Shown here in pieces: positions 12,400 through 38,783 of a DNA stretch of 64,000 nucleotides. The DNA comes from Lysobacteraceae bacterium (GTDB lineage: Bacteria; Pseudomonadota; Gammaproteobacteria; Xanthomonadales; Xanthomonadaceae). The notes under the pieces were generated by a model, which ran no database searches, had not been told where the DNA came from, and was given only the letters and a program-made list of their open reading frames with translations. The DNA is taken from assembly GCA_023954075.1 (NCBI GenBank), contig JAMLIV010000001.1:124001-188000 (forward strand), in the 5' to 3' direction. Both the position numbers and the translations under genes were made by a program. Each line of letters opens with the position of its first letter. Positions within the stretch are counted from its first letter, which is position 1.

Positions 12400-12984
12400 T
12401 TATCCCGCATCGTCGATCCTGATGTTGCCCCACAGCAGCTTCCAGGCCAGCACCAGGCTGAGCGCCGCTCCCGCCGCAAGCAGGGCCTTGCCGACCTGCT
12501 GCTGGTCGGCAAGCAGATAGTTGGCGCACAGCCGCTGCGGCAGGGCCAGGTACAGCCAGCCGACCCGGAACGCGGTGGCGATTACTTCGGCCAGGAACAC
12601 GCCGCGCACCACGAATCCCATGCGCGGCCAGCTCAGCGCGAGCGGCAGTCCGATCAGCGCGGGGACGGCGAGGAACTTCGCCGCCGCAACCATCGGCGCA
12701 TCAATCGCCGCGTCCAGCACGCGCGGGATCATCCAGACCAGGCCGGCCAGCGATGCCAGCAGGAAGCCACAGATGCCGCCGGCATCCCAGCGCGCCGCCG
12801 CCACCGCGACGCGCGGCGGCAGCGCGCCCGCCAGCAGCGATCCCGCCACGGCCAGCAGCGGAATCTGCGCCAGCATGTGCAGCGTCATGGTGGATTCGAG
12901 CGCGTGCCGCACCGGCGGCAGCGCGAGCAGGCCCCACAGCAGCAGGCCCGCCCACGCGCGCCGGTTTGTCGAGGTGGTCCTCAT
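12400..12984 (-). CDS. Multi-pass membrane protein of the heme-copper oxidase operon
   Basis: A 194-residue hydrophobic protein with about five or six membrane helices (near 12-26, 35-55, 68-90, 100-120, 126-148 and 165-184). No cofactor motif is evident and the family is not recognised. Its ATG overlaps the stop of the SCO gene by four bases (ATGA), so it belongs to the subunit II - subunit I - SCO operon. The position matches the 'orf1' that closes the norSY-senC-orf1 cluster known from Nitrosomonas europaea, which supports an assembly or stability role, though that is inference from order only. Confidence 0.8.
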   Translation of the reverse strand: MRTTSTNRRAWAGLLLWGLLALPPVRHALESTMTLHMLAQIPLLAVAGSLLAGALPPRVAVAAARWDAGGICGFLLASLAGLVWMIPRVLDAAIDAPMVAAAKFLAVPALIGLPLALSWPRMGFVVRGVFLAEVIATAFRVGWLYLALPQRLCANYLLADQQQVGKALLAAGAALSLVLAWKLLWGNIRIDDAG

Positions 12985-13598
12985 GGTTGCAGCCGCGCAC
13001 GCACGTAGCGTTCGGCTGCGGCGGCGTCGTTCCAGTCCAGGATCGCGACCAGTCGGCCGGCGGGATCCACCACGTTGATCGCCGCGTTGTGGACGTAGCC
13101 GTCGAGTCCGTCCGGGATCGCGATGACGCCGAACGAGCGCATCAGCGCATCGAGTTCGCCCGCCTTCGTCGGCCGCGCCGCGATCCAGCCGGGGCCCCGA
13201 TTGCGCGAGCGGCGCTGGTAGTCGGCGAGCTGCGCGGGATCGTCGTGCGACGGGTCGAAGCTGATGCTCAGCAGCGCGACCCTGCCGTCCGCGATCGGTC
13301 CGGAAAGCCGCGTTTCGAGGCGCGCGAACTCGTTGCCCTGCACCGAACAGTACGTGAGGCATCGGGTGTAGATGAAGTCCACCAGCAGCCAGCGGCCGTG
13401 CAGGCTGGCCAGTTCGATGGTGTCGCCGCCGGCGGTCTGCAGCGAGGCCGCCGGCAGCGCGCGCGGGTGCTCGCTCACGGCGATCCGCCGTGCGCCTTCC
13501 ACAGTGAATGCGCGAAATCCGTGGGTAACCGCGGCGAGCGTTGCGATCCCTGCGGCGACGATCAGAAGGCTAGCCAGCAGCGTCCGCAGCACCCGCAC
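12981..13598 (-). CDS. SCO1/SenC family copper chaperone
   Basis: A 205-residue membrane-anchored thioredoxin-fold protein that inserts copper into the CuA centre of subunit II. One N-terminal helix (about 5-24) is followed by the copper motif YTRCLTYCSVQGNEF (C80 and C84) and the conserved distal histidine in YVHNAAINVVD. GTG 13598 is chosen as start because GGGAGGA precedes it by five bases; a longer frame upstream would overlap subunit I too far. It still overlaps the subunit I stop by about 29 bases, and its own stop overlaps the next gene by ATGA. Confidence 0.92.
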   Translation of the reverse strand: MRVLRTLLASLLIVAAGIATLAAVTHGFRAFTVEGARRIAVSEHPRALPAASLQTAGGDTIELASLHGRWLLVDFIYTRCLTYCSVQGNEFARLETRLSGPIADGRVALLSISFDPSHDDPAQLADYQRRSRNRGPGWIAARPTKAGELDALMRSFGVIAIPDGLDGYVHNAAINVVDPAGRLVAILDWNDAAAAERYVRARLQP

Positions 13599-15078
13599 CG
13601 GATCCTCCCGCCGCCGGCTTGCGCAAGAGGCCCGCCGTGATCCGGATCGCGAAGTACAGCATCGCCAGCAGGACCAGGCTTCCGCCGATCGCGCCGGCCA
13701 CATCGGAACCGAGCCAGGCATCCAGATGCACGTCCATGCGCCGGGCGACGCTGTCGAGGCCGCCGCGCAGGAAGGAGAACGCGAGAGTCAGACCGCCGAC
13801 CAGCAGCATGGCCAGGCCGATCAGGTTGTCCGCGGTCGAGTTCGGCGGCACCTGCTCATCGCTGCGCCGTCCCATGACGTGGAACATCAGCGCCAGGCAC
13901 ATCGGCAGCACGCCGATCAGCAGGTAGAAGTGGAAATGCCCCGGCACCCACTGGGTGTTGTGCATCACCAGGTTGTTGCGGATCGTGCCGTCGAGGATCG
14001 CCGGGACGATGCCGGCCGCCCAGCCGAACATCGCAAGGATCATGAGCCTGGAGGGCAGGTTCCAGCGGATGTTGGACTGGTAGAGGTTGGTGAGCGCGCC
14101 ATAGACGGTCACCAGGAAAACCGGGAATCCCGCGCCCCAGGACACCACCTGGCCCATGATCGACAGCCAGCGCGGCTGGGCGAAGTCCATCAGCAGGTGG
14201 TGCGGGAAGACGACGATCACGAACACCGTGCTTACCGCCCACGACCACAGGAACGGACGCGAGATGGGATAGGGCTTCTGCGTGTAGCGCGGCAGCAGCG
14301 CGTAGACGACGATCACGCCCATGTAGATCGTGGCATTGATGTACATGTGCCCGAACCAGTAGATCAGGTTCTTGGCCAGCAGCGCGTCGAGCGTGACCTG
14401 CGGGAAGTAGATGTTGACCAGTCCCATCACCAGCACCACGGCACCGGCGATGATGCCGATCGAGTTGGCGATGATCACCATGGTGCTGGCCACCACGGTC
14501 TTGGGATGATCCGGATCGATGGTGCCGCCGAACAGCCACTGCAGGCCCAGCGCGCGCCCCAGGTTGCCGTGCACCTTGATGATGGCTGCGGCCGCGTCGA
14601 AGTAGAACAGCAGCGCGCCGACGCCGATGAACAGGTAGCCCAGCATGAACAGCGCCGCCGCGCCGGGCGTCCACAGGCCCATGCTGCTGGTGGGCAGCGG
14701 ATACAGGAAGGTCCACAGCCCGCCGTAGTTGCCCAGGAAGATCGAGGCGATGATGCACAGCGCCCCGATCAGGAAAAGGACGTAATTGGCGACGAAGGCC
14801 CACAGGTGCAGGCGCACGTACTTGCGCAGGAAGTACCACATCACTCCCATCGTCACCATGCCCATGGTGCCGACCATGCCGGCACCGTGCATCGACAGCA
14901 GCTTGTAGAACCAGTCCGGCGGCACGCCGATCCAGCGCGCCTGCGCCATGCGCATGGTCACGCCGAAGGTCATCATCAGCACCAGCAGGATCACCGCGCT
15001 GATCATGTACCAGTTGAACGCCACGCGTTCCCCGCCGCGCAGGCGCTCTTCTTCGGGATACAGGGTGAGTGATGCCAT
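13570..15078 (-). CDS. Heme-copper oxidase subunit I, B-family/sNOR-type candidate
   Basis: A 502-residue, about 12-helix catalytic subunit. Seen directly: low-spin heme ligand H64 (SMHGAGM), CuB ligands H244 (WFGHMYINATIYMG) and H293/H294 (FPHHLLMDFAQP), high-spin heme ligand H381 and second low-spin ligand H383 (QWVPGHFHFYLL). The tyrosine that oxygen reductases carry four residues after the first CuB histidine (HPEVY) is replaced by asparagine (H-M-Y-I-N, N248). The family literature associates Asn there with sNOR nitric oxide reductases. Together with the subunit II - I - SCO - membrane protein order, this makes an NO reductase plausible. Automatic pipelines would call it cytochrome c oxidase subunit I. 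Confidence 0.85.
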   Translation of the reverse strand: MASLTLYPEEERLRGGERVAFNWYMISAVILLVLMMTFGVTMRMAQARWIGVPPDWFYKLLSMHGAGMVGTMGMVTMGVMWYFLRKYVRLHLWAFVANYVLFLIGALCIIASIFLGNYGGLWTFLYPLPTSSMGLWTPGAAALFMLGYLFIGVGALLFYFDAAAAIIKVHGNLGRALGLQWLFGGTIDPDHPKTVVASTMVIIANSIGIIAGAVVLVMGLVNIYFPQVTLDALLAKNLIYWFGHMYINATIYMGVIVVYALLPRYTQKPYPISRPFLWSWAVSTVFVIVVFPHHLLMDFAQPRWLSIMGQVVSWGAGFPVFLVTVYGALTNLYQSNIRWNLPSRLMILAMFGWAAGIVPAILDGTIRNNLVMHNTQWVPGHFHFYLLIGVLPMCLALMFHVMGRRSDEQVPPNSTADNLIGLAMLLVGGLTLAFSFLRGGLDSVARRMDVHLDAWLGSDVAGAIGGSLVLLAMLYFAIRITAGLLRKPAAGGSGAGAADAAG

Positions 15079-15089
15079 GGTCGACCCCC

Positions 15090-16025
15090 TTATTGGCCCG
15101 CGCTGCGCAGCGCGGCCACCTGTGCCGGCGTGACCGGGTCACCGTGGTTGCCCCAGGCGCTGCGCTCGTGGTTGACAACTGCGGCAATGTCCTCATCGCT
15201 GAGGATGTCCTTGAACGGCTGCATGGGCACCGGATAGGCGACTCCGCCGATGACCTTGCCCTGCAGCCCGTAAAGCACCGCGTGGATGTGTGCGGTCGGA
15301 TCGGCGTCGTTGACTGCCGCGTTGTCGGCCAGCGGCGGGTAGATGCCCGGCAGGCCCTGGCCGCTCGGCTGGTGGCAGGCCGCGCAGTGCGTGGCGTACA
15401 CCTGTTCGCCGCTGGCGGCGACCGGTTCGCCTGCCGCCGCCGCCTTCCCCGCGGCGGGGGCTTCACCTGCAGCCGGCTGCGCCGACGCGAGGCTGGCCAC
15501 CACGTTGATCGTGGCCGTCATCGGGGCGTGCCCCAGTCCGCAATACTCCAGGCACATGACCGTGTACTTGCCCGGGGTGTCGAAGGTGTGCAGCAGCTTG
15601 TTGGTGTAGCCGGGCATCGCCTGGGTCTGGCTCACGATGCGGCCGTCCGGCGAGTACAGCGCGAACCCGTGGTTGACATCCGCGCTGGTGACGCGGAACT
15701 CCACGGCGCTGCCGGCCTCGACGGTCGATGGCGTGATCTGCCAGGACCACTGTCGCCCCACCACGTCGACGACCTGCTGGGCCGCGAGCGGTTTTTTCTG
15801 GTGTGGAATCGGATAGTGGCGCAGCGTCGCCCAGGTGCCGACAGTGAAGCCCACCAGCAGGATGCCGAAGAGCCATGCCTGCAGCCGCCGCGCATTGCGT
15901 GCGGACCTGCGTGCTGCCTCGTCGTCTGCAGGCTTGCCGGCCTGCAGAATGACCAAAAGGAATCCGAGTGCGACCAGCCCGATTCCCGTCAGGGCGATGA
16001 TCCAGACAACCTCTTGCAGGGCCAT
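15090..16025 (-). CDS. Heme-copper oxidase subunit II with CuA and fused cytochrome c domain
   Basis: A 311-residue protein. Two membrane helices (about 8-28 and 49-67) are followed by a cupredoxin domain with a full CuA set: H119 (VNHGF) and C158, E160, C162, H166, M169 in CLEYCGLGHAPM. An alanine/glycine/proline linker (about 180-205) leads to a C-terminal cytochrome c domain with CAACH (C214, C217, H218) and a possible axial Met in PVPMQPF. The start at ATG 16025 has GGGGAGACGC before it. It is the first gene of the operon, 12 bases before subunit I, and takes electrons from soluble cytochrome c. Confidence 0.93.
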   Translation of the reverse strand: MALQEVVWIIALTGIGLVALGFLLVILQAGKPADDEAARRSARNARRLQAWLFGILLVGFTVGTWATLRHYPIPHQKKPLAAQQVVDVVGRQWSWQITPSTVEAGSAVEFRVTSADVNHGFALYSPDGRIVSQTQAMPGYTNKLLHTFDTPGKYTVMCLEYCGLGHAPMTATINVVASLASAQPAAGEAPAAGKAAAAGEPVAASGEQVYATHCAACHQPSGQGLPGIYPPLADNAAVNDADPTAHIHAVLYGLQGKVIGGVAYPVPMQPFKDILSDEDIAAVVNHERSAWGNHGDPVTPAQVAALRSAGQ

Positions 16026-16062
16026 GCGTCTCCCCTTGCATGACTGCGGCATACCCGCGGTT

Positions 16063-16091
16063 TTACTACTACCTCAGCAAAGCGCTGTCAA
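16063..16091 (-). promoter_or_regulatory. Sigma-70-type promoter of the heme-copper oxidase operon
   Basis: On the minus strand a perfect -35 TTGACA (16086-16091) is followed 17 bases later by TAGTAA (16063-16068). It lies 38 bases before the subunit II start and is one of the best promoter matches in the window. Confidence 0.65.
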
Positions 16092-16350
16092 CAAGGGAGC
16101 ATCGAAACTGCCATGTCCGGACCAGCGTCACCGCAACGATACGACGTGGTCTGATCCGTACGGGCAGGTGTCGCAGGCTCAAGTTTTCCGCAGATTGAAA
16201 CCGCCGCTTCGCAACGTGCCGCCACGCGTGCGCACGGTGGTTTGCCGGGTCGGATCCGATGGCGATTGCGCAGGTCGTCTCGCGCGTCCCGATGATTGCG
16301 CCGGTGCTCCGATCGTGCCAGTCTGTCGATTCCGTGACCGGAGGTGACCC
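16092..16350. other. Intergenic region between divergent oxidase operon and cupin gene
   Basis: About 260 bases with no gene-like frame. It ends in a GGAGGTGACCC ribosome site for the cupin gene. No inverted repeat or regulator box stood out apart from the oxidase promoter to its left. Confidence 0.6.
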
Positions 16351-16731
16351 GTGAGCAAAGACCCTGTTTCGATCAAGGAATTGGCCAAGGGCAACAAGGA
16401 TTTCCGGCGTGAGGCCGTCACCGGCAAGCATTCGCAGATCGTGCTGATGTGTCTGGAGCCCGGGGAGGCCATCGGGGAGGAGGTGCACGGCGGGAACGAC
16501 CAGATCTTCGTGGTCGCCAAGGGCAGCGGCGAAGCGCTGGTCGCGGGGGCGTCCCAGCCGCTGGAAAAGGGCTCGATGCTGCTGGTGCCCGCGGGCACGC
16601 CCCACGACATCCGCAATACCGGCAGCAAGCGCCTGCGTCTGGTCACGATCTACTCGCCGCCGCACCACGCCCCCGGCACCGTGCACCGCACCCGCGAGGA
16701 CGCGATGCGCGCGGAAGCGCACGAGCACTGA
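16351..16731 (+). CDS. Cupin-domain protein
   Basis: A 126-residue single-cupin protein starting at GTG 16351 behind a strong GGAGG site. Motif 1 is GEEVHGGNDQIFVVAKGSGE, with His and Glu/Asp-type metal ligands partly preserved, and motif 2 is PAGTPHDIRNTG. The C-terminus is histidine-rich (YSPPHHAPGTVHRT, then EAHEH) and may bind metal. Such small cupins are often stress-related or sugar/metal-binding proteins; no substrate can be inferred. It is divergent from the oxidase operon. Confidence 0.85.
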   Translation: MSKDPVSIKELAKGNKDFRREAVTGKHSQIVLMCLEPGEAIGEEVHGGNDQIFVVAKGSGEALVAGASQPLEKGSMLLVPAGTPHDIRNTGSKRLRLVTIYSPPHHAPGTVHRTREDAMRAEAHEH

Positions 16732-37349: not shown

Positions 37350-38783
37350 ATGTCTTCGACAACGCTCAATGAAACCTACAACGACAAGGTGGTGCGCCAG
37401 TTCGCGGCTGCAACCGTGATCTGGGGCATCGTCGGGATGCTGGTGGGGGTCATCATCGCTGCCCAGCTCTACTGGCCCGAGATGACCGACGGCATCGCCT
37501 GGCTCGGCTACGGCCGTCTGCGCCCGCTGCACACCAACGGCATGATCTTCGCCTTCGGCGGCTCGGTGCTGTTCGCCACCTCGCTGTACGTGGTGCAGCG
37601 CACCTGCCACGTGCGCCTGATTTCCGACCGGCTCGCCAGCTTCGTGTTCTGGGGCTGGCAGGCCGCAATGGTCGGCGCGGCCATCACCCTGCCACTGGGC
37701 ATCACCCAGAGCAAGGAGTACGCCGAGCTGGAGTGGCCGCTGGACATCCTCGTCACGGTGGTCTGGGTGGCCTACGGCTGGCTGTTCTTCGGCACCATCG
37801 TCAAGCGCCGGGTCAAGCACATCTACGTGGCCAACTGGTTCTACGGTGCCTACGTGATCGCCGTGGCGCTGCTGCACATCGTCAACAACCTGGTGATGCC
37901 GGCCGGGCTGTGGAAGTCCTATCCGGTCTACAGCGGCGCGGTCGACGCCATGGCGCAGTGGTGGTACGGCCACAACGGCGTGGCCTTCCTGCTGACCGTG
38001 GGATATCTGGCGATGATGTATTACTTCGTGCCCAAGCAGGTGCAGCGGCCGATCTATTCCTATCGCCTTTCCATCGTGCACTTCTGGGCGCTGATCTCGA
38101 TCTACATGTGGGCTGGCCCGCATCACCTGCTGTACACCTCGTTGCCCGACTGGGTGCAGTCGGTGGGCATGGTGTTCTCGCTGATCCTGCTGGCACCCTC
38201 GTGGGGCGGTGCGATGAACGGCATCCTCACGCTCTCGGGGGTCTGGTACAAGCTGCGCACCGATCCGATCCTGAAGTTCCTGATCGTGTCGCTGAGCTTC
38301 TACATGATCGCCACCTTCGAAGGCCCGATGCTTTCGATCAAGACGGTCAACTCGCTCTCCCACTACACCGACTGGACCGTGGGCCACGTGCACGCCGGCA
38401 CCCTGGGCTGGGTGGCGATGATCTCGATCGGCTCGCTCTACGCGCTGTATCCGCGCGTGCTGGGCCTGCAGCAGATGTATTCGGTCAAGTGGATCGACGC
38501 ACACTTCTGGCTGCATACCATCGGCGTGGTGTTCTACATCGCCTCGATGTGGATCGCCGGCGTCATGCAGGGCCTGATGTGGCGCGCCACCGGCGACGAC
38601 GGCACCCTGACCTACACCTTCGTCGAATCGGTCGCGGCCACCTATCCCTACTACCTGTTCCGCTTCCTGGGCGGGGTGATGGTGCTCAGCGGCATGCTGC
38701 TGATGGCGTGGAACGTCATCAGGACCTACGGCATGACCGACAGGATCGTGCCGGTGGCGGTTCCGGCCCCGGCGCACGGTTGA
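37350..38783 (+). CDS. ccoN: cbb3-type cytochrome c oxidase subunit I
   Basis: A 477-residue catalytic subunit with about 12 helices. Heme and CuB ligands: [15 protein letters not shown] (low-spin His), [16 protein letters not shown] (CuB His), [14 protein letters not shown] (CuB His pair) and [11 protein letters not shown] (high-spin and low-spin His). [11 protein letters not shown] carries the helix-VII tyrosine that replaces the cross-linked Tyr of other oxidases. It reduces O2 with very high affinity and starts a tightly packed cluster extending to 46450. Confidence 0.97.

Follow-up and report, generated by a model that had tools for sequence, protein, structure and literature searches.

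A four-gene sNOR operon, a probable nitric oxide reductase with a fused cytochrome c domain, in a Lysobacteraceae genome

The window analysed here, a 64-kb stretch of DNA from a Lysobacteraceae bacterium, carries a heme-copper operon that probably encodes an sNOR, i.e. a nitric oxide reductase of the heme-copper type that contains CuA and is linked to cytochrome c; judged from the sequences compared here, we put the probability of this reading at roughly 70%. The clade of subunit I, an active-site asparagine, the operon content and the kinship to the sNORs of Nitrococcus mobilis and of amoA-bearing genomes support its placement in the sNOR group. What is new is that ORF4, the small membrane protein of the operon, is common to sNOR and to the biochemically tested bNOR and was absent from those loci of Tyr-type ba3 oxidases that were read. 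New, too, are the NsrR-like regulators near 13/80 sNOR operons and the enrichment of NirK in sNOR genomes. sNOR has been proposed as an NO reductase, bNOR is a biochemically characterised one, and standard databases label sNOR genes as cytochrome c oxidase (PMC11388526). Because of this mislabelling, the ability of many bacteria to turn NO into N2O is undercounted. Whether NO or O2 is the substrate of sNOR is openly disputed (PMC6967387), and the ORF4 association constitutes independent comparative evidence on this point, offering at the same time a simple marker to test.

Operon layout

All four frames (window 12400-16052) are intact, of full length and encoded on the minus strand:

12400..12984, minus strand: ORF4 (orf1/cbaC2-like), small membrane protein of 194 aa
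12981..13598, minus strand: SCO1/SenC copper-insertion protein (Pfam SCO1-SenC; CLTYC motif)
13570..15078, minus strand: sNOR subunit I (NorY-like, 502 aa; COX1 Pfam PF00115, E 1.7e-44)
15090..16052 (probable start 16025), minus strand: sNOR subunit II (NorS-like; COX2 cupredoxin and cytochrome c, Pfam)
16053..16350, no strand: intergenic region 5' of the operon

Frames and Pfam matches thus agree with the gene order subunit II, subunit I, SCO/SenC, small membrane protein given in the initial annotation, with ORF4 giving no Pfam match in the window annotation scan. In the case of subunit II, a start at 16025 (MALQEVVW, with AAGGGGAGA just before it) is more likely than one at 16052, and SCO probably begins with a GTG at 13598, where its frame overlaps the last part of subunit I. 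Cytochrome oxidase models of NCBIfam match the operon, all of them below their cut-offs. Upstream, a cupin gene at 16351 is divergent from the operon. No NsrR, FNR/DNR or NorR site was recognisable in the region 16053-16350, and no Rrf2 or NsrR-like gene was found within the 64-kb window.

Subunit II and its cytochrome c domain

Subunit II has an intact CuA motif (CLEYCGLGHAPM) and two N-terminal hydrophobic stretches, read directly from the sequence, and in both respects it corresponds to an sNOR subunit II. Additionally, a class I cytochrome c domain (CAACH) is found at its C-terminus (window 15090-15460), a feature present in L029, L049 and L059 and in no other examined relative. The nearest domain is that of L049 (57%), and further oxidase operons (L111-L115) and the region of a NirK-like gene (L185) contain domains at 52-58%. 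Since similar domains are found in such different surroundings, the cytochrome c domain looks mobile and is perhaps a mobile electron-entry module. As a separate observation, L111, L112, L113 and L115 (from Rhodanobacter and the L005 genome) encode a heme-copper subunit I that is cbb3-like but diverged, and next to it a cytochrome c domain similar to that of the window.

Active site and fold of subunit I

Subunit I has the full set of ligand histidines, and the family conserves them: H64 and H383 for the low-spin heme, H381 for the high-spin heme, and H244, H293 and H294 for CuB. Four positions after H244 stands Asn248 (codon AAT). In O2 reductases, a redox-active tyrosine donates the fourth electron in O2 splitting. 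As GHPIVY of Thermus ba3 pairs gap-free with GH-x3-N in the profile alignment, Asn248 occupies the column of the cross-linked Tyr237, in line with the initial reading of a complete set of heme and CuB histidines followed by Asn at H244+4. Column counts gave Asn in 91/91 sNOR and 3/3 bNOR sequences and in 0/27 A/B oxidases, which have Tyr throughout (16/16 B and 11/11 A). With all 91 sNORs carrying Asn against Tyr in all 27 A/B oxidases, the match is not by chance.

Subunit I of the window thus lacks the cross-linked Tyr that A and B oxygen reductases have at CuB-His +4, its Tyr252 standing at +8, and with Asn at +4 it also lacks the FeB-binding Glu of cNOR and qNOR. Tyr252 was considered as the cross-linked Tyr and rejected, as it falls four residues later, where other oxidases have Leu or Met. 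At this column 91/91 sNORs have Tyr; by column counts Asp363 is likewise sNOR-specific, and both Asn248 and Tyr252 are without variation in 81 sequences. The resulting spacing H-x3-N-x3-Y mirrors the H-x3-E-x3-E of cNOR, e.g. HYWVEGVWE in the cNOR of the same genome.

As a mark of sNOR, the role given to it in the initial annotation, Asn held in every sNOR counted but is not exclusive: it marks sNOR and CuANOR alike (PMC8756737, Table A4) and is found in Bacillus too (PMC3475470). Because it is shared with bNOR/CuANOR, Asn alone is insufficient for an assignment to sNOR, and clade and operon decide.

An AlphaFold model of subunit I, computed with 40 aligned sequences, reached a pLDDT of 88 and a pTM of 0.90, and its matches in the PDB are heme-copper oxidases, with a TM of about 0.78 to bo3, aa3 and ba3. 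An sNOR is expected to have no canonical K or D proton channel. Compared to ba3, those columns that we take to form the K-pathway are mixed, with Tyr237, Tyr244 and Ser309 lost (Asn, Val255 and Val320) and Tyr248 and Thr312 kept (Tyr259 and Thr324). Next to Tyr259, position 260 is Glu in 79/81 sequences and Ala, with codon GCG, only in the window and in L058, a Rhodanobacter MAG. These are two apparently independent changes.

Phylogeny and distribution of the sNOR family

For comparison, 80 relatives were taken from named genomes, including those of Nitrococcus mobilis Nb-231, Rhodanobacter, Castellaniella caeni, Comamonas badia, Halochromatium and Alkalibacillus. The references of the subunit I tree were cNOR, bNOR and oxidases of types A, B and C (eNOR, gNOR, qNOR, nNOR and N. 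europaea NorY were left out). In this tree, 25 sNOR rows form one side of a 100/100 branch, with the window inside, in the group of Nitrococcus, and adjoining L005 and L006 (82/91). The same clade holds the sNORs of Nitrococcus mobilis and of the amoA-bearing genomes, so that tree and active-site column together bear out the proposed sNOR membership. The genome's own cNOR falls with the C oxidases. Long branches meet at the base of A, B and sNOR, and their deep order is not readable.

One alternative is that the operon is of the bNOR/CuANOR type or a B-type oxygen reductase and not an sNOR. bNOR does share the Asn column and the SCO and ORF4 neighbours. However, bNORs sit on a separate 100/100 branch among the ba3-type (B) oxidases, their scores with the sNOR profile stay under 50 bits, and Tyr252 and Asp363, both specific to sNOR, are missing from them. 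A jump in score sets the family apart: with the profile it is 641 vs 57 bits, and across 249 Bacillales genomes no sNOR member falls below 583 bits, the next heme-copper oxidase standing at 47. With the window outside the B-type clade and Tyr252 outside the column of the cross-linked Tyr, the two observations named in advance as speaking against an sNOR were both absent, and we consider this alternative extremely improbable.

The family reaches far beyond the ammonia oxidisers, with close relatives in Rhodanobacter, Castellaniella, Thermomonas, Dokdonella and Alcaligenaceae. The nearest relative has 77% identity. Homologues at 49% identity are found in two Burkholderiales genomes with amoA, presumably those of ammonia oxidisers, and share Asn, Tyr and the operon. 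Of about 90 sNOR loci, nearly all have the genes in the order II-I-SCO-ORF4, and this holds for Nitrococcus, the two amoA-bearing genomes and Bacillales as well. In the bacterial family of the window itself, sNOR was detected in 3/297 genomes, the window's included, and none was found in the single other genome of the same genus (85% complete). This distribution points to horizontal spread.

The window gene shows some peculiarities of its own. Its terminal branch in subunit I is about three times that of the nearest relatives (0.24 vs 0.075-0.094). Relative-rate tests were significant with the outgroups L012 and L024 and not with L048 and L038; as the outcome depends on the outgroup, a rate acceleration is not claimed. 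The long branch and Ala260, confined to the window and L058, would fit an sNOR whose function is being lost or altered in this lineage, with proton delivery impaired or rerouted by the change from Glu260 to Ala next to the retained K-pathway-like Tyr259 and with cNOR available as a backup. Against this stand the four intact full-length frames, the identity to the nearest relative, the retention of all other catalytic residues and the outgroup dependence of the rate tests, and we give such a decay or shift of function little credence.

ORF4 and SCO

ORF4 shows weak Pfam similarity to DUF1404 and Caa3_CtaG, which suggests a role in copper assembly. In 97 homologues P42, P87, D91, G112, W119, C153, Q161 and G165 are invariant. 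Its fold was predicted with a pLDDT of 94, and a search of this model against the PDB gave no relative.

Among the 249 Bacillales genomes, ORF4 is present in 37. Of the Bacillales ORF4 loci, 30 were read: 7 adjoin an sNOR and 23 a bNOR, SCO is present in every one, and no Tyr-type ba3 oxidase is a neighbour. In ba3-type loci, read over short flanks only, neither ORF4 nor SCO was seen. There are two exceptions to the association: the sNOR L129 is without an adjacent ORF4, and the genome of the bNOR L131 is not among the ORF4-bearing ones.

We tentatively propose, at somewhat less than even odds, that ORF4 and SCO could form a dedicated assembly module for Asn-type (NO-reducing) sites, common to sNOR and bNOR, in which the Tyr-to-Asn change would have arisen independently, with ORF4 usable as a genomic marker to tell NO reductases from similar-looking oxidases, and that E260A together with the fused cytochrome c would make the window enzyme a functionally altered sNOR variant.

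Neighbouring regulators and NirK

Rrf2 regulators were found within 5 kb of the sNOR operon in 13/80 loci from several lineages:

NsrR-like Rrf2 regulator loci: L082, L084, L071, L070, L068, L065, L052, L041, L074, L075, L081, L057, L054

The copies in L074 and L075 are nearly identical. The count leaves out a 30% hit in L013. When seven of the Rrf2 proteins were scanned, the NsrR model gave the best NCBIfam score, under its cut-off. Clustering of flanking genes yielded mostly antisense shadows of the operon, and Rrf2 was the only real family among those followed.

NirK above the curated cut-off occurs in 15/50 sNOR genomes vs 17/369 in the class background (p=2e-7, a statistic that ignores phylogeny). 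In Alkalibacillus aidingensis, the sNOR operon has a NirK-like gene (L080:1388-2431) about 2 kb away on the opposite strand. About ten sNOR genomes (e.g. G1346:C8:183729-184520) additionally have a NirK-like domain at ~175-210 bits, below cut-off, in frames of ~620-840 aa.

Proposed function and respiratory context

In the proposed mechanism, electrons would enter from a c-type cytochrome and, in the window enzyme, probably pass from the fused cytochrome c domain through CuA and the low-spin heme to the high-spin heme/CuB pair, where two NO would be converted to N2O. Asn248 would replace the redox-active Tyr, NO reduction presumably having no need of it, and Tyr252, at the place of the second Glu of cNOR, may fill a proton or second-sphere role. 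SCO and ORF4 would act as assembly factors loading copper. In the cell, the enzyme may serve in NO removal or respiration at low oxygen, beside a canonical cNOR.

This cNOR lies on contig 13 (L151:4453-7145) and adjoins bc1 genes, so that NO reduction need not depend on the sNOR operon. Its NorC-like partner has 331 aa and two CxxCH motifs, i.e. an extra cytochrome c domain. The cbb3 oxidase that the initial annotation placed near 37 kb is present (subunit at C1:161386-162681, about window 37386-38681); the genome also has an aa3 oxidase, and O2 respiration is therefore covered by both and not by cbb3 alone. A search for nirK and nirS elsewhere in the genome, as suggested at the outset, found no NirK in this 86%-complete assembly, and the sole Cytochrom_D1 match, a YVTN-type beta-propeller, was rejected as NirS. 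The NosZ search (PF18764) gave no match anywhere, controls included, and is uninformative.

We know of no assay of a purified sNOR and found none in the literature. Ammonia-oxidising bacteria with NOR genes form N2O by nitrifier denitrification, and strains without NOR genes release NO (PMC6478695). In N. europaea, limiting O2 induces the sNOR operon 2.7-10.8-fold and NO is reduced mainly by cNOR, from which the authors suggested an oxidase; they also point to the retained heme-copper centre and the absent NorB glutamates (PMC6967387). The assignment of the window operon as an NO reducer stands as far as sNOR membership goes, its substrate being what we infer against a published O2-reductase view.

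Extended to the sNOR family, the window operon included, that view would make its members mainly high-affinity O2 reductases working at low oxygen and high NO, with Asn248 altering only the mechanism. The CuB ligands are complete, all three histidines indicating a heme-copper and not a heme-iron site, and in Nitrococcus mobilis the COX1 hits comprise only an A-type oxidase and the sNOR, which could therefore serve as low-O2 oxidase. E260A, the lack of NirK and NirS in the 86% genome, and the lack of an NsrR-like gene or site at the window also count against NO reduction. On the other hand, the cross-linked Tyr is lost in every sNOR counted, ORF4 is shared with bNOR and was not seen beside ba3 oxidases, sNOR loci are associated with NsrR-like regulators and NirK, and cbb3 and aa3 oxidases are already available in the window genome. 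The missing Tyr, the shared ORF4, the NsrR-like neighbours and the NirK association favour NO reduction, and we regard a primary role in O2 reduction as unlikely. An NO-reducing sNOR is the reading that we retain.

Comparison with known systems

In Nitrosomonas europaea, the cluster norSY-senC-orf1 corresponds to NE0683-86 (PMC4940428, Table 1), which agrees with the initial comparison, and the four genes of NorSY in N. europaea and other ammonia oxidisers, as well as their order, are the same as in the window (PMC4940428). The sNOR homologues of amoA-bearing genomes have a subunit II without cytochrome c domain and retain Glu260, whereas the window has the domain and Ala260. The same holds for the sNOR of Nitrococcus mobilis Nb-231 (L048), with CuA-only subunit II and Glu260, although its operon and active-site residues are as in the window, at 64% identity in subunit I.

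The type II qCuANOR cluster of Bacillus azotoformans and Geobacillus, which comprises a two-TM CuA subunit II, a short Asn subunit I, senC and a 4-5 TM protein (PMC3475470), has the same gene set and order as the window operon. Bacillales sNOR members share ~42-46% subunit I identity with the window and have no cytochrome c domain. In the case of Bacillus bNOR/CuANOR (type I qCuANOR), the Asn column and the SCO and ORF4 homologues are as in the window, but Tyr252 is missing, identity is ~23% and the protein groups with ba3 oxidases.

Thermus thermophilus ba3 (1EHK) has in common with the window the fold (TM about 0.78), the CuB and heme histidines and Tyr248/Thr312 (Tyr259/Thr324); it differs in Tyr237, which is Asn in the window, and in Tyr244 and Ser309, which are both Val. 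Unlike the window operon, the ba3-type loci read have no ORF4.
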